This document shows positions 1 through 5,457 of a DNA stretch of 5,457 nt, piece after piece. The translations under genes were made by a program, and so were the position numbers. A model generated the notes under the pieces. It saw only the letters and a list, made by a program, of their open reading frames with translations. It was not told the origin of the DNA and ran no database searches. The DNA comes from Candidatus Fermentibacterales bacterium (GTDB lineage: Bacteria; Fermentibacterota; Fermentibacteria; Fermentibacterales; JAFGKQ01), in the NCBI GenBank assembly GCA_016928495.1, contig JAFGKQ010000309.1, positions 1 through 5,457 on the forward strand. Reading direction: 5' to 3'. How positions within the stretch are numbered: position 1 is the first letter of the stretch; the number at the start of each line of letters is the position of its first letter.

Positions 1-161
1 ACGAAGTCGCCGGTGTCCACGTGTGGGGTGTAGACCGGCTTGTTCTTCCCCTGAAGGATCACGGCCACCCTCGAGGCAAGCCTGCCGAGCGCAAGGTCGC
101 TGGCGTCGACCACCCACCAGCGCCTCTGGACCGAGCCCTTCTTAGCCGAGAAAGTCTTCAA
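1..161 (-). CDS. rplM: 50S ribosomal protein L13 (RplM), N-terminal part, runs off the window
   Basis: L13 is an early-assembling protein of the large ribosomal subunit. Codons read from TTG at 159-161 to the edge give 53 residues: it begins [12 protein letters not shown], continues [18 protein letters not shown] (13-30), and reaches [16 protein letters not shown] (38-53). The opening MKTFSAK, the W-x-V-V-D-A strand, LGRLAS, and especially the [16 protein letters not shown] block are diagnostic of L13. An in-frame TGA at 168-170 lies three codons upstream, so translation cannot begin further back. TTG is the only start that gives the family's N-terminus. GGAGGG at 171-176 is 9 nt upstream of it. 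About 90 residues lie outside the window; rpsI commonly follows rplM. The gene is preceded by a long structured leader that probably controls it. Confidence 0.95.
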
Positions 162-177
162 GATCCCTCACCCTCCG

Positions 178-261
178 CTCTTCAACCCTCGACGGGTAGA
201 CCAGTCTGCCGCACGGAGCATGGACGGAGCCGAAGAGGTCATGGCGCGGCCCGATGCTCCG
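178..261 (-). promoter_or_regulatory. Candidate pseudoknot / switch structure in the rplM leader
   Basis: Two long pairings interleave in the leader RNA. Helix A is eight perfect Watson-Crick pairs: CGGAGCAT (254-261) with ATGCTCCG (214-221). Helix B is eleven uninterrupted pairs: 227-237 with 178-188, including CTCTTC with GAAGAG, three of the eleven being G-U. The 5'-to-3' order is A, B, A', B', so both together form an H-type pseudoknot, or else they compete. Helix B ends two bases before the Shine-Dalgarno GGAGGG (171-176). In addition the two CTCCG copies (214-218 and 225-229) are each complementary to CGGAG at 173-177, offering an alternative pairing that hides the ribosome-binding site. 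Known L13 leaders in other bacteria make autoregulation plausible; function here is inferred. Confidence 0.5.
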
Positions 262-281
262 ATCTGCAGTAACTACATAGT

Positions 282-299
282 AATGCGGCCTTCCGCACC
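282..299 (-). promoter_or_regulatory. Small hairpin in the rplM leader
   Basis: The minus strand reads GGTGCGG, loop AAGG, CCGCATT: a seven-pair stem with five Watson-Crick and two G-U pairs. It is followed by an AT-rich block (271-281) but not by a run of T, so it is not a convincing intrinsic terminator. A weaker stem, CCGC-TGGT-GCGG, lies just upstream at 313-324, and both use a copy of GGTGCGG. These may be part of the leader fold or chance GC-rich pairings. Confidence 0.3.
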
Positions 300-356
300 G
301 GATGCCCTCTCACCGCACCAGCGGCCCCCGGGCAACCGTTCGGACGCCGGGCGTGG

Positions 357-385
357 AATATGTGCTGCTACTCTCTTGATGGCAA
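357..385 (-). promoter_or_regulatory. Candidate sigma-70-type promoter for rplM
   Basis: On the minus strand, TTGCCA (380-385, five of six matches to TTGACA) is followed by exactly 17 bases and then CATATT (357-362, four of six matches to TATAAT). It lies 34 bases past the stop of the 171-residue gene and points at rplM. Initiation would fall near position 350, giving a leader of about 190 nt. Matches of this quality can occur by chance, and the lineage's own promoter consensus is unknown. A second AT-rich spot at 271-284 contains TACTAT but has no reasonable -35 partner. Confidence 0.4.
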
Positions 386-418: not shown

Positions 419-934
419 TCACAGCGATCCGGACCGCAGGACCGCCTTCCCGATCATGTCCGGGGTGCAGACGCTGACCCGGGCCATCTCGAGCAGGTCC
501 CGGGCCTCATCCGGAAGAGAGGCGGCGACCACCAGAAGCTCCATCCCGAGCTCCGACCGGAGGGCAGTGGACTTGCCCGCCAGGGCCAGGCTCCGCTTCC
601 CGGCGGGGACTCTCTCGCCGAAGGACTGGCAGACCACGCCCAGGCTCCTCCTGCGCGCGAGCAGCAGCAAGGGGATCCCGGGCCAGGGGTAGACCCTGGC
701 GGAGCGGGAGAAGCCCAGAGGCCTGAGCTGCTCCCAGGCCGCGGAGTAGATGTGCCTGGCCTTGCGCGCGTCAAGAGCCTTGCCGAGGAGATGCTCGAAG
801 GGCTCGCCTCCGGCGACGCGCGGCGCTTCCTCCAGAGCGAGCCGCCACTCCCGAGGGAGATGACGGGGGGCGGGCGCCCACTCGGGATGGCCGATGGCGA
901 CAGCTCCCATCCGGGTCCAGAAGGTCGCGGCCAT
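419..934 (-). CDS. Uncharacterised 171-residue protein, possible degenerate Mrr-like nuclease fold
   Basis: I do not recognise this gene with confidence. It follows recX by 26 bases on the same strand, and no competing frame there looks like a real protein. The only in-frame start nearby is the ATG at 932-934; its GAGGA element abuts the codon, which is too close for ideal initiation. The next ATG (codon 9) has no visible Shine-Dalgarno. No signal peptide or membrane segment is evident. The central and C-terminal part follows a pattern seen in Mrr-like restriction-endonuclease domains: helix ending in LRPLGF (70-75), strand PLLLLARR (88-95), strand LGVVCQSF (98-105), helix ALAGKSTALRSELG (117-130), strand ELLVVAAS (132-139), helix PDEARDLLEMA (141-151), then VSVCTPDM (153-160). 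The usual Asp and Glu/Gln-x-Lys positions appear to be replaced by P/L and CQS, so if related it would be inactive. This link is inference only. No terminator is evident after the stop. Confidence 0.7.
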   Translation of the reverse strand: MAATFWTRMGAVAIGHPEWAPAPRHLPREWRLALEEAPRVAGGEPFEHLLGKALDARKARHIYSAAWEQLRPLGFSRSARVYPWPGIPLLLLARRRSLGVVCQSFGERVPAGKRSLALAGKSTALRSELGMELLVVAASLPDEARDLLEMARVSVCTPDMIGKAVLRSGSL

Positions 935-960: not shown

Positions 961-1626
961 TCAGTCCGAGCCTCTCTCGCCGCTCTGCTCCCGGAGCTTC
1001 AGCATGACCCTCCGTATCGAGTCCCCCGAGAAACCGCGCCTCTGCATCCAGGCCCTGGCCCTGCGCGTTCTCACGTCCGACTCGAACCTGCCGTACAGCC
1101 TTCGCAGCTTCTCGACCACCGATGGCAGGGCCTCCTCCTCGTCGAAGCCGGCCAGCGCCTTCTCGGCAGCTCCCCGGCCCACCCCGCTCTGCCTGAGCCT
1201 GCGGGCGAGCCCGGCCCTGCCCCTGAGGAGCGACCCGGAGCCGCGTGCGGCCTGATCGGCGGCCAGCCTGGCGAACCTATCGTCATCCACGAGCCCGTGC
1301 TCGAGGGCGAACGTCACCGTTTCCTCGACCACGCGGTCGCAGTAGAGCCTGCGCCGGGAGAGATAGTCACGCAGCATCGCGCTGGTCCGCTCCCGGCTTC
1401 CGAGATAGCGCCCCAGGTCCCTTCGGGCTGCCTCCGACTGGGCCGGGCAGGCTCTGCGCTCCAGCCCGGCCATGTCAACCGGGCGGCCGGGGCACAGCCC
1501 CTCGGAGGACGCCATGTTCTCCGGGACGAGTAGTTGTCCGCTCCCGGAGACAAGGAGCAGCCAGCCGGGTCTGACCGGCTCGATAGCCGTGAGGAGGATC
1601 TCCGGTGCGCTCGGGTTCCCGGCCAT
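961..1626 (-). CDS. recX: RecX, regulatory protein of RecA
   Basis: RecX binds RecA filaments and modulates their extension and activity. The frame runs on upstream into recA, but the sensible start is the ATG at 1624-1626, 19 bases past the recA stop, with GAGG (1637-1640) 10 nt upstream. This gives 221 residues. The body fits the all-helical RecX repeats: first repeat about residues 67-128 (LGRYLGSRERTSAMLRDYL, then GLVDDDRFARLAAD), second about 131-160 (LLRGRAGLARRLRQSGVG, AAEKALAG), third about 174-211 (RRARAWMQRRGFSGDSIRRV). Residues 1-66 form a non-helical-looking N-terminal region (ILLTAIEPVRPGWLLLVSG), comparable to the beta-rich N-terminal segment of longer RecX proteins such as that of Bacillus subtilis. 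Position directly after recA is the classic location. A hairpin covers its ribosome-binding site. Confidence 0.92.
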   Translation of the reverse strand: MAGNPSAPEILLTAIEPVRPGWLLLVSGSGQLLVPENMASSEGLCPGRPVDMAGLERRACPAQSEAARRDLGRYLGSRERTSAMLRDYLSRRRLYCDRVVEETVTFALEHGLVDDDRFARLAADQAARGSGSLLRGRAGLARRLRQSGVGRGAAEKALAGFDEEEALPSVVEKLRRLYGRFESDVRTRRARAWMQRRGFSGDSIRRVMLKLREQSGERGSD

Positions 1627-1642
1627 CGAGGCACGGCCTCGA
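1626..1642 (-). promoter_or_regulatory. recA-recX intergenic hairpin enclosing the recX ribosome-binding site
   Basis: The minus strand carries a perfect 7-bp inverted repeat, TCGAGGC, loop CGT, GCCTCGA, starting three bases after the recA stop and ending on the A of the recX ATG. The 5' arm contains the only Shine-Dalgarno-like element for recX (GAGG, 1637-1640). When folded it would block initiation on recX; a ribosome finishing recA would melt it. No T-run follows, so it is unlikely to be an intrinsic terminator. The pairing is directly visible; its regulatory effect is inferred. Confidence 0.6.
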
Positions 1643-1645
1643 GGA

Positions 1646-2713
1646 TCAGGAAGGCTCTTCGTCGGCGGGGACGGCTTCTTCTTCATCCCCGCTCCAGGAC
1701 GCGGATGAGCCCAGGCCGGCCTTTTCGCGCAGCGCGGTCTCGAGCCTGGCTGAGACCTCAGAGTTCTCCACGAGGAAGGCCCGTGAGTTCTCCCTGCCCT
1801 GCCCGAGCTGGAGATCGTCATAGGAGTACCAGGTGCCCCGACGGCTGACGAGACCCTCTTCGAGGGCCATGTCGAGCAGCTCGCCCTCCCTGGAGATCCC
1901 CTCGCCATGGAGGATGTCGAACTCGGTCTGCCGGAAGGGCGGGGCGAGCTTGTTCTTGACGACCTTCACGCGGGTTCGGCTGCCCACTATCTTGTCGCCC
2001 TCCTTGATCGAGGCGATCCGGCGGATGTCCAGCCTCACGCTCGCGTAGAACTTGAGCGCCCTTCCTCCCGTGGTGGTCTCCGGGTTGCCGAACATCACCC
2101 CTATCTGCATGCGGATCTGGTTGATGAAGAGCACGACGCTCTTCGAGCGCGAAACCGCACCGGTCAGCTTCCGCAGAGCCTGAGACATCAGGCGCGCCTG
2201 GAGGCCCACATGGGAGTCGCCCATCTCCCCCTCTATCTCGGCACGGGGGGTAAGAGCGGCGACGGAGTCTATGCAGACCAGGTCCACCGCATTGCTCCTG
2301 ACCAGCATCTCGGTGATCTCGAGGGCCTGCTCGCCGCTCGAGGGCTGCGAGACCAGCAGGTTGTCGATGTTGACTCCCAGCCTGCCGGCGTAGAGGGGAT
2401 CCAGGGCATGCTCGGCGTCCACGAAAGCGACGTCCCCGCCCAGCTTCTGGGCGTTGGCGACCATGTGAAGGGCGAGCGTGGTCTTCCCCGAGGCCTCGGG
2501 CCCGTATATCTCGATGATCCTGCCTCTGGGGACACCCCCTATCCCAAGGGCCATGTCCAGCCCCAGGGAGCCGGTCGGGATCGTCTCCACCTTCAGCGCG
2601 GCCTGCTGCCCCAGCCTCATGATGGCCCCCTGCCCGTACTGCTTCTGTATCTGGTGCAGCGCAGCTTCGAGAGCCTTGGCCTTCCCGTCGTCCGCCGCTT
2701 TCCTGGTGGTCAT
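1646..2713 (-). CDS. recA: Recombinase RecA
   Basis: RecA forms ATP-dependent filaments on single-stranded DNA, performs homologous strand exchange, and in many bacteria triggers LexA self-cleavage. The 355-residue length matches the family (E. coli 353). Visible features in order: Walker A GPEASGKT (71-78); VDAEHALDP (98-106) with the catalytic Glu at 101; Walker B VDLVCIDS (143-150); loop L1 around [10 protein letters not shown] (161-170); loop L2 and signature [20 protein letters not shown] (198-217) followed by [10 protein letters not shown] (219-228); C-terminal [14 protein letters not shown] (293-306); and an acidic tail. No intein or insertion is present and all key residues are intact. 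The ATG overlaps the thpR TGA (ATGA), with AGAAGGG upstream. I see no room for a dedicated promoter at this junction, so expression probably comes from the operon or from a promoter inside upstream coding sequence. Confidence 0.98.
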
Positions 2714-3264
2714 GCCAATCCGCCCTTCTGCGCGCCAGGCCCGTAGGTCCTGACCGCTTCGTAGACCGGGCCTTCCCGGGTGAGAGTGCTGTTGTAGACG
2801 ACCGTTCTGGACAGGACCCCGCTCCAGGGACCGGGCGGGTCCAGCGTGGCCCTGCTCCCGGATGTGCCCTGACGGGCAATCGTAATGTGTGGCCTGAAAG
2901 ACCTGCGATCAACTCTCCCGCGATCATCGGGGACACGGGAGAGCAGCTCCGCCATCCTGCCGACCTGGCTCCCGAAGCTGCCGGAGATCCAGTAGACGGA
3001 TGGAAGTCCCCCGGGGACCCTCTGGCCGAAGGAGCCCGTGTCATCGATCACGAACGGGGACTCCTCGAAGGGCGTTGCTCCAAGGAGACGAAGCAGCTCG
3101 TCGAGGGCCGCGTCAGTGATGTCCCCGAGGAACCTGACCGTCAGGTGAAGCTGCTGGTCCCGCACCCAGCGCAGATCGGGCCAGGAGCGCCTCTGCCTGC
3201 CAAGCCACGGCTTCATCTCCTCCACCGTCCCCTCCGGGAGCGGCATCGCCACGAAGATCCTCAA
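2710..3264 (-). CDS. thpR: RNA 2',3'-cyclic phosphodiesterase (ThpR/LigT, 2H family)
   Basis: ThpR opens 2',3'-cyclic phosphate ends of RNA, leaving a 2'-phosphate. The family was first described as a 2'-5' tRNA ligase (LigT). The 184-residue protein has the two signature H-x-T/S-hydrophobic motifs: HLTV at residues 40-43 within [10 protein letters not shown], and HITI at 126-129 within RPHITIAR. Their histidines form the catalytic pair. The N-terminus [11 protein letters not shown] and the late strand [15 protein letters not shown] are also typical. The start is TTG at 3262-3264, overlapping the cinA TGA in a TTGA arrangement. AAGGGGG 7 nt upstream of it supports this choice. The stop overlaps the recA ATG by four bases, so the gene sits translationally coupled between cinA and recA, an order also known from Deinococcus. 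Its cellular role next to recA is not clear from sequence. Confidence 0.93.
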
Positions 3265-4556
3265 GCCGATGCCCCCTTCGACCGGAGCTCCCGCAAGCAG
3301 GAGTAGAGCATACCCATGGCGTTGACCACGGCCGCTCTCCTGACCCTCTCGCGGTCACCGTAGAAACGATGCAGAGCCGCCCTGGACGTTCCGGGGCACT
3401 CGAGAGCTATCCAGACGGTTCCCACGGGCTTCTGCTCGCTCCCGCCACCCGGCCCTGCGATCCCCGAGACCGCGACCGACGCTCCGGAACCGGTCAGCCT
3501 CCTGACGCCGGACGCCATCTGCTCGACGACCTCCCTGCTGACCGCGCCGGCCCCGGACAGCGATTCCTCGCTGACGCCGAGAACACGGGCCTTCACCTCG
3601 TCGGAATAGGACAACACGCCTCCGCGGAACCAGTCGGAGGAGCCAGGCTCGGACGTAAGCTCCGCCCCCAGGAGGCCGGCGGTGCAGGACTCCGCCACCG
3701 AGACGCTGAGGCCGGATTCCATGAGCTGTCTGCCCGCGGCGAGGCAGAGTGTCACTCCGGGTTCCGTCGAGTAGCAGTTGCAGCCGAGCTCCTCCGCCAT
3801 GGCATCGCCGGCACGCAGCACTGCTTCTGCCTCTCCACTGATCTTGACGTCGACCATCTGGACCGAGGGCAGGAAGGCAAGGTCGCAACCCCATCGCCTG
3901 GCCGCCGGGGACAGCCTCTCATAGAGATGGACCTCCCTGAGCCCCCATGTCCTGAGGAGCCCGGTTCGCGGGCCGGAGCGCAGGTCCGGGGAGATCCATC
4001 CCCTGCCCTCGAGGACCTCCAGGAGCCCCGGGAGCATCGAGCGCACCTCGGATGGAACGCCCGGCAGGCAGGCTATGGCGCAGCCATCCCGCTCGAGCAG
4101 AATGCCCGGGGCTATCCCGGGACCGTTCGGGAAAGCAATGGAGCCGACCGGCATCATTGCCTGCTTCCAGGCGACCGGGGGGACTTCCTCGCCCCTGGCT
4201 TCGAACCTCGCGCGGACCATGCGGGATGCATCTGCGTTCCTCTCGAGCTGCCTGCCCAGCGCCTGCGCAACGGCAGCCGACGTCATGTCGTCATCCGTCG
4301 GGCCCAGGCCACCGGTGGTGACGATGAGCCTCCCGGGCCTGATCAGACGGGATATCTCTCCCGAGATCTGTTCTAGAGAGTCGGGGAGAACGCTGCAACC
4401 CCCGACACGCAATCCAGCTCCGGACTCTAGGAACCGGGCGCACTCCGAGAGGTTGACGTCCCTGGTCCGGCCTTCCAGCAGCTCGTCCCCGACGAGGACG
4501 ATCCAGGCATGCTCCAGCGTCGCCATTCGGCGGGTCCGGTCAGAGCAGCACGTCAT
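3261..4556 (-). CDS. cinA: CinA: ADP-ribose pyrophosphatase / NMN amidohydrolase family protein
   Basis: This is a cytoplasmic two-domain protein. In the family the N-terminal MoCF-like domain hydrolyses ADP-ribose and the C-terminal PncC-like domain deamidates nicotinamide mononucleotide, so CinA recycles NAD by-products. In streptococci CinA also associates with RecA. Numbered from the ATG at 4554-4556 (431 aa), the N-domain shows VGDELLEGR (22-30) and TGGLGPTDDDMT (81-92). The C-domain shows AESCTAG (288-294, with the Ser of the ESCT motif used by PncC deamidases), GGVLSYSDEVK (312-322), GIAGPGGG (365-372) and KPVGTVWIAL (376-385). I prefer the ATG at 4556 because GGGAG lies 9 nt upstream; it overlaps pgpA by 17 bases. 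The ATG at 4524-4526 (421 aa) has no visible Shine-Dalgarno but gives an N-terminus closer to most homologues. The stop overlaps the thpR start. Confidence 0.93.
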   Translation of the reverse strand: MTCCSDRTRRMATLEHAWIVLVGDELLEGRTRDVNLSECARFLESGAGLRVGGCSVLPDSLEQISGEISRLIRPGRLIVTTGGLGPTDDDMTSAAVAQALGRQLERNADASRMVRARFEARGEEVPPVAWKQAMMPVGSIAFPNGPGIAPGILLERDGCAIACLPGVPSEVRSMLPGLLEVLEGRGWISPDLRSGPRTGLLRTWGLREVHLYERLSPAARRWGCDLAFLPSVQMVDVKISGEAEAVLRAGDAMAEELGCNCYSTEPGVTLCLAAGRQLMESGLSVSVAESCTAGLLGAELTSEPGSSDWFRGGVLSYSDEVKARVLGVSEESLSGAGAVSREVVEQMASGVRRLTGSGASVAVSGIAGPGGGSEQKPVGTVWIALECPGTSRAALHRFYGDRERVRRAAVVNAMGMLYSCLRELRSKGASA

Positions 4557-5019
4557 GGGCGAGGTCTCCCAGCCGGACGAGCGATCCCGCCATGGCCCCG
4601 GCGATCAGGTCGTCCAGCAGAATGCCGGCAGCCGAGTCGTGGTTGTCGGCCGCTCGCACCGGCCATGGCTTCAGTACGTCCAGGGCTCTGAACAGCACGA
4701 ACGAAGCCAGGATCACCATCAGTCCCCGGGATGGCCCGGCGACGCAGAAGCAGAGCCAGGCTCCAGCGAACTCGTCTACGTTGACGCGTCCGGGGTCCTT
4801 GCCCCAGCGGCTCCTCCCCGCCACGCACCCGGCGAAGCCGAGAGGGACCAGAAGCGCCATCAGGAGCCAGGGGACGAACCAGGGAGCCTGCCGGAGACCT
4901 GAGAACCAGAAGACCGCGAGCGCCATTGCGGCGCCCGCAGTGCCCGGAGCCACGGGCAGGAAGCCCGTTCCCAGCGTGGTCGCGACGGCCAGTCCCAGCC
5001 TCGAGCGGAGCCCGCCCAC
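4540..5019 (-). CDS. pgpA: Phosphatidylglycerophosphatase A (PgpA)
   Basis: PgpA is a membrane phosphatase that removes the terminal phosphate of phosphatidylglycerophosphate, the product of PgsA, to give phosphatidylglycerol. The frame stays open further upstream, but that part only shadows pgsA. I place the start at the GTG at 5017-5019, which overlaps the pgsA stop by one base and has GGAAGG (5031-5036) 11 nt upstream. The protein is then 159 residues, close to the usual 160-170. Family motifs appear in order: GTGFLPVAPGTAGA (residues 17-30), VDEFAGAW (81-88, acidic DE pair), FRALDVLKPWPVR (110-122) and GILLDDLIAG (132-141, DD pair). Hydrophobic stretches around 30-65 and 86-112 are probable membrane segments. 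Gene order (pgsA then pgpA) puts two consecutive reactions on one transcript. The start codon is inferred; the identity is firm. Confidence 0.93.
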   Translation of the reverse strand: MGGLRSRLGLAVATTLGTGFLPVAPGTAGAAMALAVFWFSGLRQAPWFVPWLLMALLVPLGFAGCVAGRSRWGKDPGRVNVDEFAGAWLCFCVAGPSRGLMVILASFVLFRALDVLKPWPVRAADNHDSAAGILLDDLIAGAMAGSLVRLGDLAHDVLL

Positions 5020-5457
5020 TAGAGAAGGAGCCTTCCGAGGATGGTCCGGTTGCGCCAGAAGTAGTCGATTCCTGATATCACGGTGAGAGCGATCGCGATC
5101 AGGAGGACGATCAGGGAGACCTGCTCGAGCCGGAGCACCAGCAGCCTGTCGCTCTGCGTCATCGGCCCGATCAGAGCCAGGAGCATGTAAAGGGAGAGAG
5201 CGAGCATCTGGGTCGTCGCCTTCCACTTCCCCATCCGGGAGGGCAGGATCAGCACGCCTGCGTAGGCGGCTACCGCCCTGAGGCCGGTAACCAGCAACTC
5301 CCGGCCTATGACCATGTAGGCGGCCCAGACCGGGACAAGCCCTATGTTCACGAGGCCCACCAGGACCAGAGAGACCAGCAGCTTGTCGGCGAGAGGATCC
5401 AGGAACTTGCCCAGGTTGGTGGTCCAGGAGTAGCGCCTGGCGAGGTAGCCATCATAA
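5019..5457 (-). CDS. pgsA: CDP-diacylglycerol-glycerol-3-phosphate 3-phosphatidyltransferase (PgsA), 5' end outside window
   Basis: This integral membrane enzyme condenses CDP-diacylglycerol with sn-glycerol-3-phosphate to form phosphatidylglycerophosphate, the committed step to phosphatidylglycerol and cardiolipin. Reading codons back to the window edge gives 145 residues beginning YDGYLARRYS. Residues 2-24 match most of the CDP-alcohol phosphatidyltransferase signature: D2-G3-x2-A6-R7-x8-G16-x3-D20-x3-D24. The first Asp of the signature lies just outside. Later blocks IGRELLVTGLR and GKWKATTQM are typical of PgsA rather than other family members. Several hydrophobic segments are visible, the last one ahead of a basic C-terminus. 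PgsA proteins are usually about 180 residues, so roughly 35-40 are missing. An internal GTG at 5358-5360 opens a shorter reading frame but falls after the catalytic motif and is not the real start. The TAG stop shares its last base with the pgpA start. Adjacent pgpA strengthens the assignment. Confidence 0.95.
   Translation of the reverse strand, partial: YDGYLARRYSWTTNLGKFLDPLADKLLVSLVLVGLVNIGLVPVWAAYMVIGRELLVTGLRAVAAYAGVLILPSRMGKWKATTQMLALSLYMLLALIGPMTQSDRLLVLRLEQVSLIVLLIAIALTVISGIDYFWRNRTILGRLLL

Follow-up and report, generated by a model that had tools for sequence, protein, structure and literature searches.

The window investigated in this study, a stretch of 5,457 nucleotides, is one of the 337 contigs that make up the 2.3-Mb draft genome (G000) of a Candidatus Fermentibacterales bacterium, which constitutes the single member of its family (f1) among the Fermentibacterota genomes compared. 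On its minus strand, the window contains the beginning of rplM, the gene coding for the ribosomal protein L13, which starts with a TTG codon at position 161 and extends past the window edge. The assignment of this gene in an earlier note, which was made from the letters of the DNA, is underlined by a match to the Pfam family Ribosomal_L13 (E 3e-15) and by the 62–74% identity of its product to L13 from 34 other Fermentibacterota genomes. The relatives of this gene assign the genome to the Fermentibacterota, with Candidatus Aegiribacteria and Fermentibacteraceae as nearest named entries. A frame of 171 residues located upstream of rplM (419–934, minus strand) finds no match in Pfam, but it may encode a conserved unnamed neighbour, since the sequence upstream of rplM in loci of the genus g8 ends in similar words (SVCTPD...). 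Further upstream, a close array of genes on the same strand (961–5360) comprises recX, recA, a LigT-type 2'-5' RNA ligase, cinA, pgpA and a CDP-alcohol phosphatidyltransferase resembling pgsA. The features surrounding the start of rplM are as follows.

1–161, minus strand: N-terminal 53 codons of rplM (ribosomal protein L13) with TTG start
162–351, minus strand: predicted 5' leader of the rplM mRNA of about 190 nt, placed by the conserved promoter
171–176, minus strand: Shine-Dalgarno sequence GGAGGG, 9 nt upstream of the TTG start, recognized from the sequence
178–188, minus strand: arm B', GGGTTGAAGAG, separated by one base (C177) from GGAGGG at 176–171
214–221, minus strand: arm A', ATGCTCCG, perfect 8-bp complement of arm A
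227–237, minus strand: arm B, CTCTTCGGCTC
254–261, minus strand: arm A, CGGAGCAT
357–362, minus strand: -10 hexamer CATATT, identical in all three loci of the family f3 and in G005
380–385, minus strand: -35 hexamer TTGCCA, from a promoter scan and the pattern found in the phylum

The plausible promoter that had been noted at the head of the leader is found as TTGCCA-N17-CATATT at 385–357 on the minus strand, and it turned out to be shared by the entire phylum. Within 260 nt upstream of rplM, the pattern TTG[AC]NN-N17-YADWTT is present in each of the 35 Fermentibacterota loci searched, where shuffled sequences give an expectation of 0.45, and spacers of 14–16 and 18–20 nt in the same pattern yield 0–2 matches in these loci. 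As the pattern was drawn up after viewing the sequences on which it was tested, the spacer control, which is less exposed to this bias, provides the more independent part of the evidence. Judged from sequence, rplM starts throughout the Fermentibacterota from one recognizable promoter with a fixed spacing of 17 nt.

The distance from this promoter to the gene varies within the phylum. Between the -10 hexamer and the start codon we find 195 nt in the window, 75–86 nt in f3, 81 nt in G005, 127–130 nt in g8, 106–124 nt in g7 and 156–220 nt in g2 together with g9. With transcription initiating 6–7 nt past the -10 hexamer, the mRNA would likely carry a leader of about 190 nt, since the conserved -10 hexamer is placed 195 nt before the start codon, and all arms from A to B' would be transcribed if the start sits where the promoter puts it. 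The long leader proposed previously is in this respect sustained at the sequence level, and, with the promoter at 385–357 and the start codon at 161, rplM shows the combination of an own promoter and a long untranslated leader that autoregulated ribosomal protein genes have in general. Its folding energy is ordinary, with z-values against shuffled sequences of -0.94 for the whole leader and of -0.47. The hairpin at 214–261 is stable, with nested pairs extending its 8-bp stem on the inside and on the outside, and many alternative GC-rich pairings are found around the Shine-Dalgarno sequence. The leader also contains a start-stop element ATGTAG at 278–273 on the minus strand.

The hairpin forms part of the arrangement in which the earlier note had suspected an autoregulatory pseudoknot. 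The complementarity described there is exact, with arm A (261–254) and arm A' (221–214) forming a helix of 8 bp devoid of mismatches, and arm B (237–227) and arm B' (188–178) a helix of 11 uninterrupted pairs, and their succession along the minus strand is A-B-A'-B'. Equally present are the copies of CTCCG, which are complementary to the CGGAG of the ribosome binding site. The 11-bp helix consists of eight Watson-Crick and three G-U pairs and is, due to the latter, weaker per pair than its shorter counterpart, as reflected in stacking sums of -16.4 and -15.8 kcal/mol for the 11-bp and the 8-bp helix, respectively.

To what extent such an arrangement is expected by chance is illustrated by a search of the leader between 350 and 178 (173 nt) for two helices that interleave, each without interruption and 6 bp or longer, the second ending at most 4 nt from the 3' end. 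When the leader was shuffled by dinucleotides, 142 of 1000 versions (14%) contained a pair of at least equal stability, as did 101 of 706 real stretches of 173 nt (14%), which overlap and were taken from both strands of the same window. Counting against a chance origin, the compact A-B-A'-B' arrangement is rare within a frame of 84 nt (7 of 1000 shuffles or 0.7%, and 9 of 1536 real stretches), with the boundaries of this frame being fixed after the fact, and arm B' lies in just the position from which ribosome binding could be blocked. The same leader additionally harbours a stronger interleaved combination, in which 320–312 pairs with 250–242 and crosses the helix between 261–254 and 221–214. 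This combination and the 11-bp helix exclude each other, since one stem region is contested by the 3' arm of the combination and by the hairpin loop.

In the ensemble of nested folds, the stem of 8 bp (254–261 with 214–221) pairs with a probability of about 1.0 and the 11-bp helix (227–237 with 178–188) with a probability of 0.00, although it has to be considered that folding programs restricted to nested pairs score pseudoknots unfairly. The best fold leaving the arms of the 11-bp helix free, combined with the stacks of this helix, amounts to -97.6 kcal/mol compared to -94.9 kcal/mol for the nested optimum, which is a rough sum preceding any pseudoknot penalty rather than a pseudoknot calculation. 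Since this penalty is roughly 7–10 kcal/mol, the 11-bp helix would be near break-even or unfavourable. It is predicted to form only as a pseudoknot, at an energy that is roughly break-even or worse. Of the earlier proposal, the functional pseudoknot is not supported. Its helices occur at the rate expected by chance, with equally strong pairs in 14% of shuffles and of real stretches, an H-type pseudoknot at the Shine-Dalgarno sequence is not favoured over nested folds, and the pairing between 227–237 and 178–188 is most likely a product of chance rather than an evolved pseudoknot.

The comparison with relatives provides no counterpart of the region. The leaders of f3 (75–86 nt), which resemble that of the window most closely, lack an equivalent of 178–261 and align with the window only at the promoter, the Shine-Dalgarno sequence and the coding start. 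When used as a DNA query, the leader finds matches at the coding start only, all of them in f3. Interleaved pairs in other leaders of the phylum are different, weaker and unrelated combinations, and no such combination is found in the leaders of L120, L121 and L118. In the short f3 leaders L120:2213-2300 and L121:1506-1593 (minus strand), a hairpin, GCTTCGAACGAAGC, directly precedes the Shine-Dalgarno sequence.

Structured rplM leaders do exist in two sister genera, where they follow the same promoter with its 17-nt spacer and extend over about 190–215 nt in g2 and about 122 nt in g8. In an alignment of 14 g2 sequences (A2; L032:1313-1518, L004, L005, L006, L019, L020, L023-L027, L029, L031 and L117), four helices have 91% of their cells paired, and eight pairs are changed on both sides, compared to 3.3 in shuffled and 2–5 in slid controls. 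The compensatory changes reside in two hairpins, and a loop, ATCTCACGG, is conserved in most members. The alignment of g8 (A3; 12 close sequences including L010:1642-1782 on the minus strand) contains two conserved hairpins (CCCCTTGGCATC... and GGGCT...GAAA...AGCCC) with 96.9% pairing but just two pairs changed on both sides, a number that was reached by 27 of 500 shuffles. The alignments thus suggest a conserved structure with compensatory changes, clear in g2 and slight in g8. In g8, a further hairpin may form around the Shine-Dalgarno sequence, and the similarity of GGGCTGAGATACACCC to a TPP riboswitch was dismissed as it found no match in Rfam. When whole genomes were searched with covariance models of both leaders (R2 for g2 and R1 for g8), each model returned one match per genome of its own genus, located at rplM. 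R2 additionally gave three weak matches among the g8 genomes, of which one lies at rplM. Neither leader matches a family in Rfam. Their relationship to the window is confined to the phylum, the promoter and the position before rplM, whereas sequence and structure are not common. As the hits of both models in the window are confined to the Shine-Dalgarno sequence and the first codons, structured rplM leaders occur in the phylum but are RNAs different from that of the window.

For E. coli, Firmicutes and Bacteroidia, L13 leaders are known or have been proposed, each with a structure of its own (PMC7247131). The rplM-rpsI operon of E. coli is subject to stringent control and to translational repression by uL13 via a structured 5'UTR of 157 nt, and the gammaproteobacterial leader is characterized by three conserved hairpins and an unusual Shine-Dalgarno sequence, GGGU, preceded by a single-stranded AU-rich stretch of 12 nt (PMC10931766). 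The window resembles this system in the identity of the gene, its own promoter and the long predicted 5'UTR (about 190 nt). In contrast to the uL13 operator, neither GGGU nor a preceding AU-rich stretch of 12 nt is found in the window, where a strong GGAGGG follows GAGGGTTGAAGAGC, which is not AU-rich. The L13_leader of Firmicutes (RF00555) is likewise located before rplM, but neither the window nor any one of 42 Fermentibacterota genomes, among them that of the window, gave a match over the gathering cut-off, while the positive controls, Bacillus subtilis and Lactococcus lactis, were both recovered. The L13 r-leader of Bacteroidia (Eckert and Weinberg 2020; PMC7247131) is one of several structurally unrelated leaders preceding rplM, and a scan of the window leader against Rfam 15 returned no match. 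An Rfam scan of the window together with the loci of 15 relatives at a permissive threshold revealed nothing meaningful. The earlier statement that the arrangement was not recognized as any of the known L13 leaders is supported for the L13 leader in Rfam.

Taken together, the locus is probably best described as a leader of about 190 nt that is transcribed from a conserved sigma-70-type promoter and contains the hairpin 214–261, with the 11-bp helix being most likely a chance pairing and expression being controlled at initiation. In this proposal, rplM would be regulated where its transcription is initiated, at the conserved promoter, and the GC-rich start region of this promoter would, as in the case of the E. 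coli operon, suit growth-rate (stringent) control. The structure of the leader may in addition modulate translation, possibly via feedback by L13 in analogy to E. coli. The exact transcription start, the stringent control and any binding of L13 are elements that we infer.

By analogy, it is plausible that the rplM leader acts as a cis-regulatory RNA specific to this lineage, and we regard as possible, though rather unlikely, that a structured leader particular to this lineage controls rplM, in response to L13 or otherwise, by a different fold, such as a long irregular hairpin at the 5' end combined with the hairpin 214–261. The length of the leader would be in line with such control, as would the conserved g2 and g8 leaders, which are found essentially only at rplM, and the diversity of L13 leader structures between lineages (PMC7247131). 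Conversely, the leader of the window folds no better than its shuffled counterparts, and the g2 and g8 models extend no further into it than the ribosome binding site and coding start. We consider it improbable that the phylum has kept one rplM promoter while repeatedly replacing the leader RNA, which differs between f1, f3, g2, g8 and g7, and that the version in the window responds to L13 by the loop of 214–261 reaching bases adjacent to the Shine-Dalgarno sequence.

Slightly less probable still is an autoregulatory pseudoknot, where bound L13 would stabilize the 11-bp helix beside the Shine-Dalgarno sequence and thereby block initiation on rplM. Besides the exact complementarity and suitable position of its arms, this mechanism could draw on the apical loop of H1, which exposes CUCUUC and would be able to reach GAAGAG beside the Shine-Dalgarno sequence, on the repression of rplM by uL13 via its leader in E. 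coli (PMC10931766) and on the structured leaders of sister genera. It is opposed by the chance-level occurrence of the helices in shuffled and real sequence, the stronger conflicting pair in the same leader, the break-even or worse energy and the absence of the region in relatives. Very doubtful is a translational coupling or attenuation by a short upstream frame of 24 codons (168–242, minus strand), which runs from ATG 242 to a TGA at 170–168 located between the Shine-Dalgarno sequence and the TTG start of rplM, as we found no convincing Shine-Dalgarno sequence before its ATG, the matching region is missing in relatives and open frames of this length are common in GC-rich DNA.

With the pseudoknot at chance level, the window itself is of little significance. 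Of some broader value are the single recognizable promoter of fixed spacing from which an entire candidate phylum starts rplM, and the leaders of at least g2, and probably also g8, as structured rplM leaders not contained in Rfam, which usefully add to the known L13 leaders of unrelated structure. The Fermentibacterota could also serve to study how leader RNAs are replaced while the promoter preceding them stays constant.
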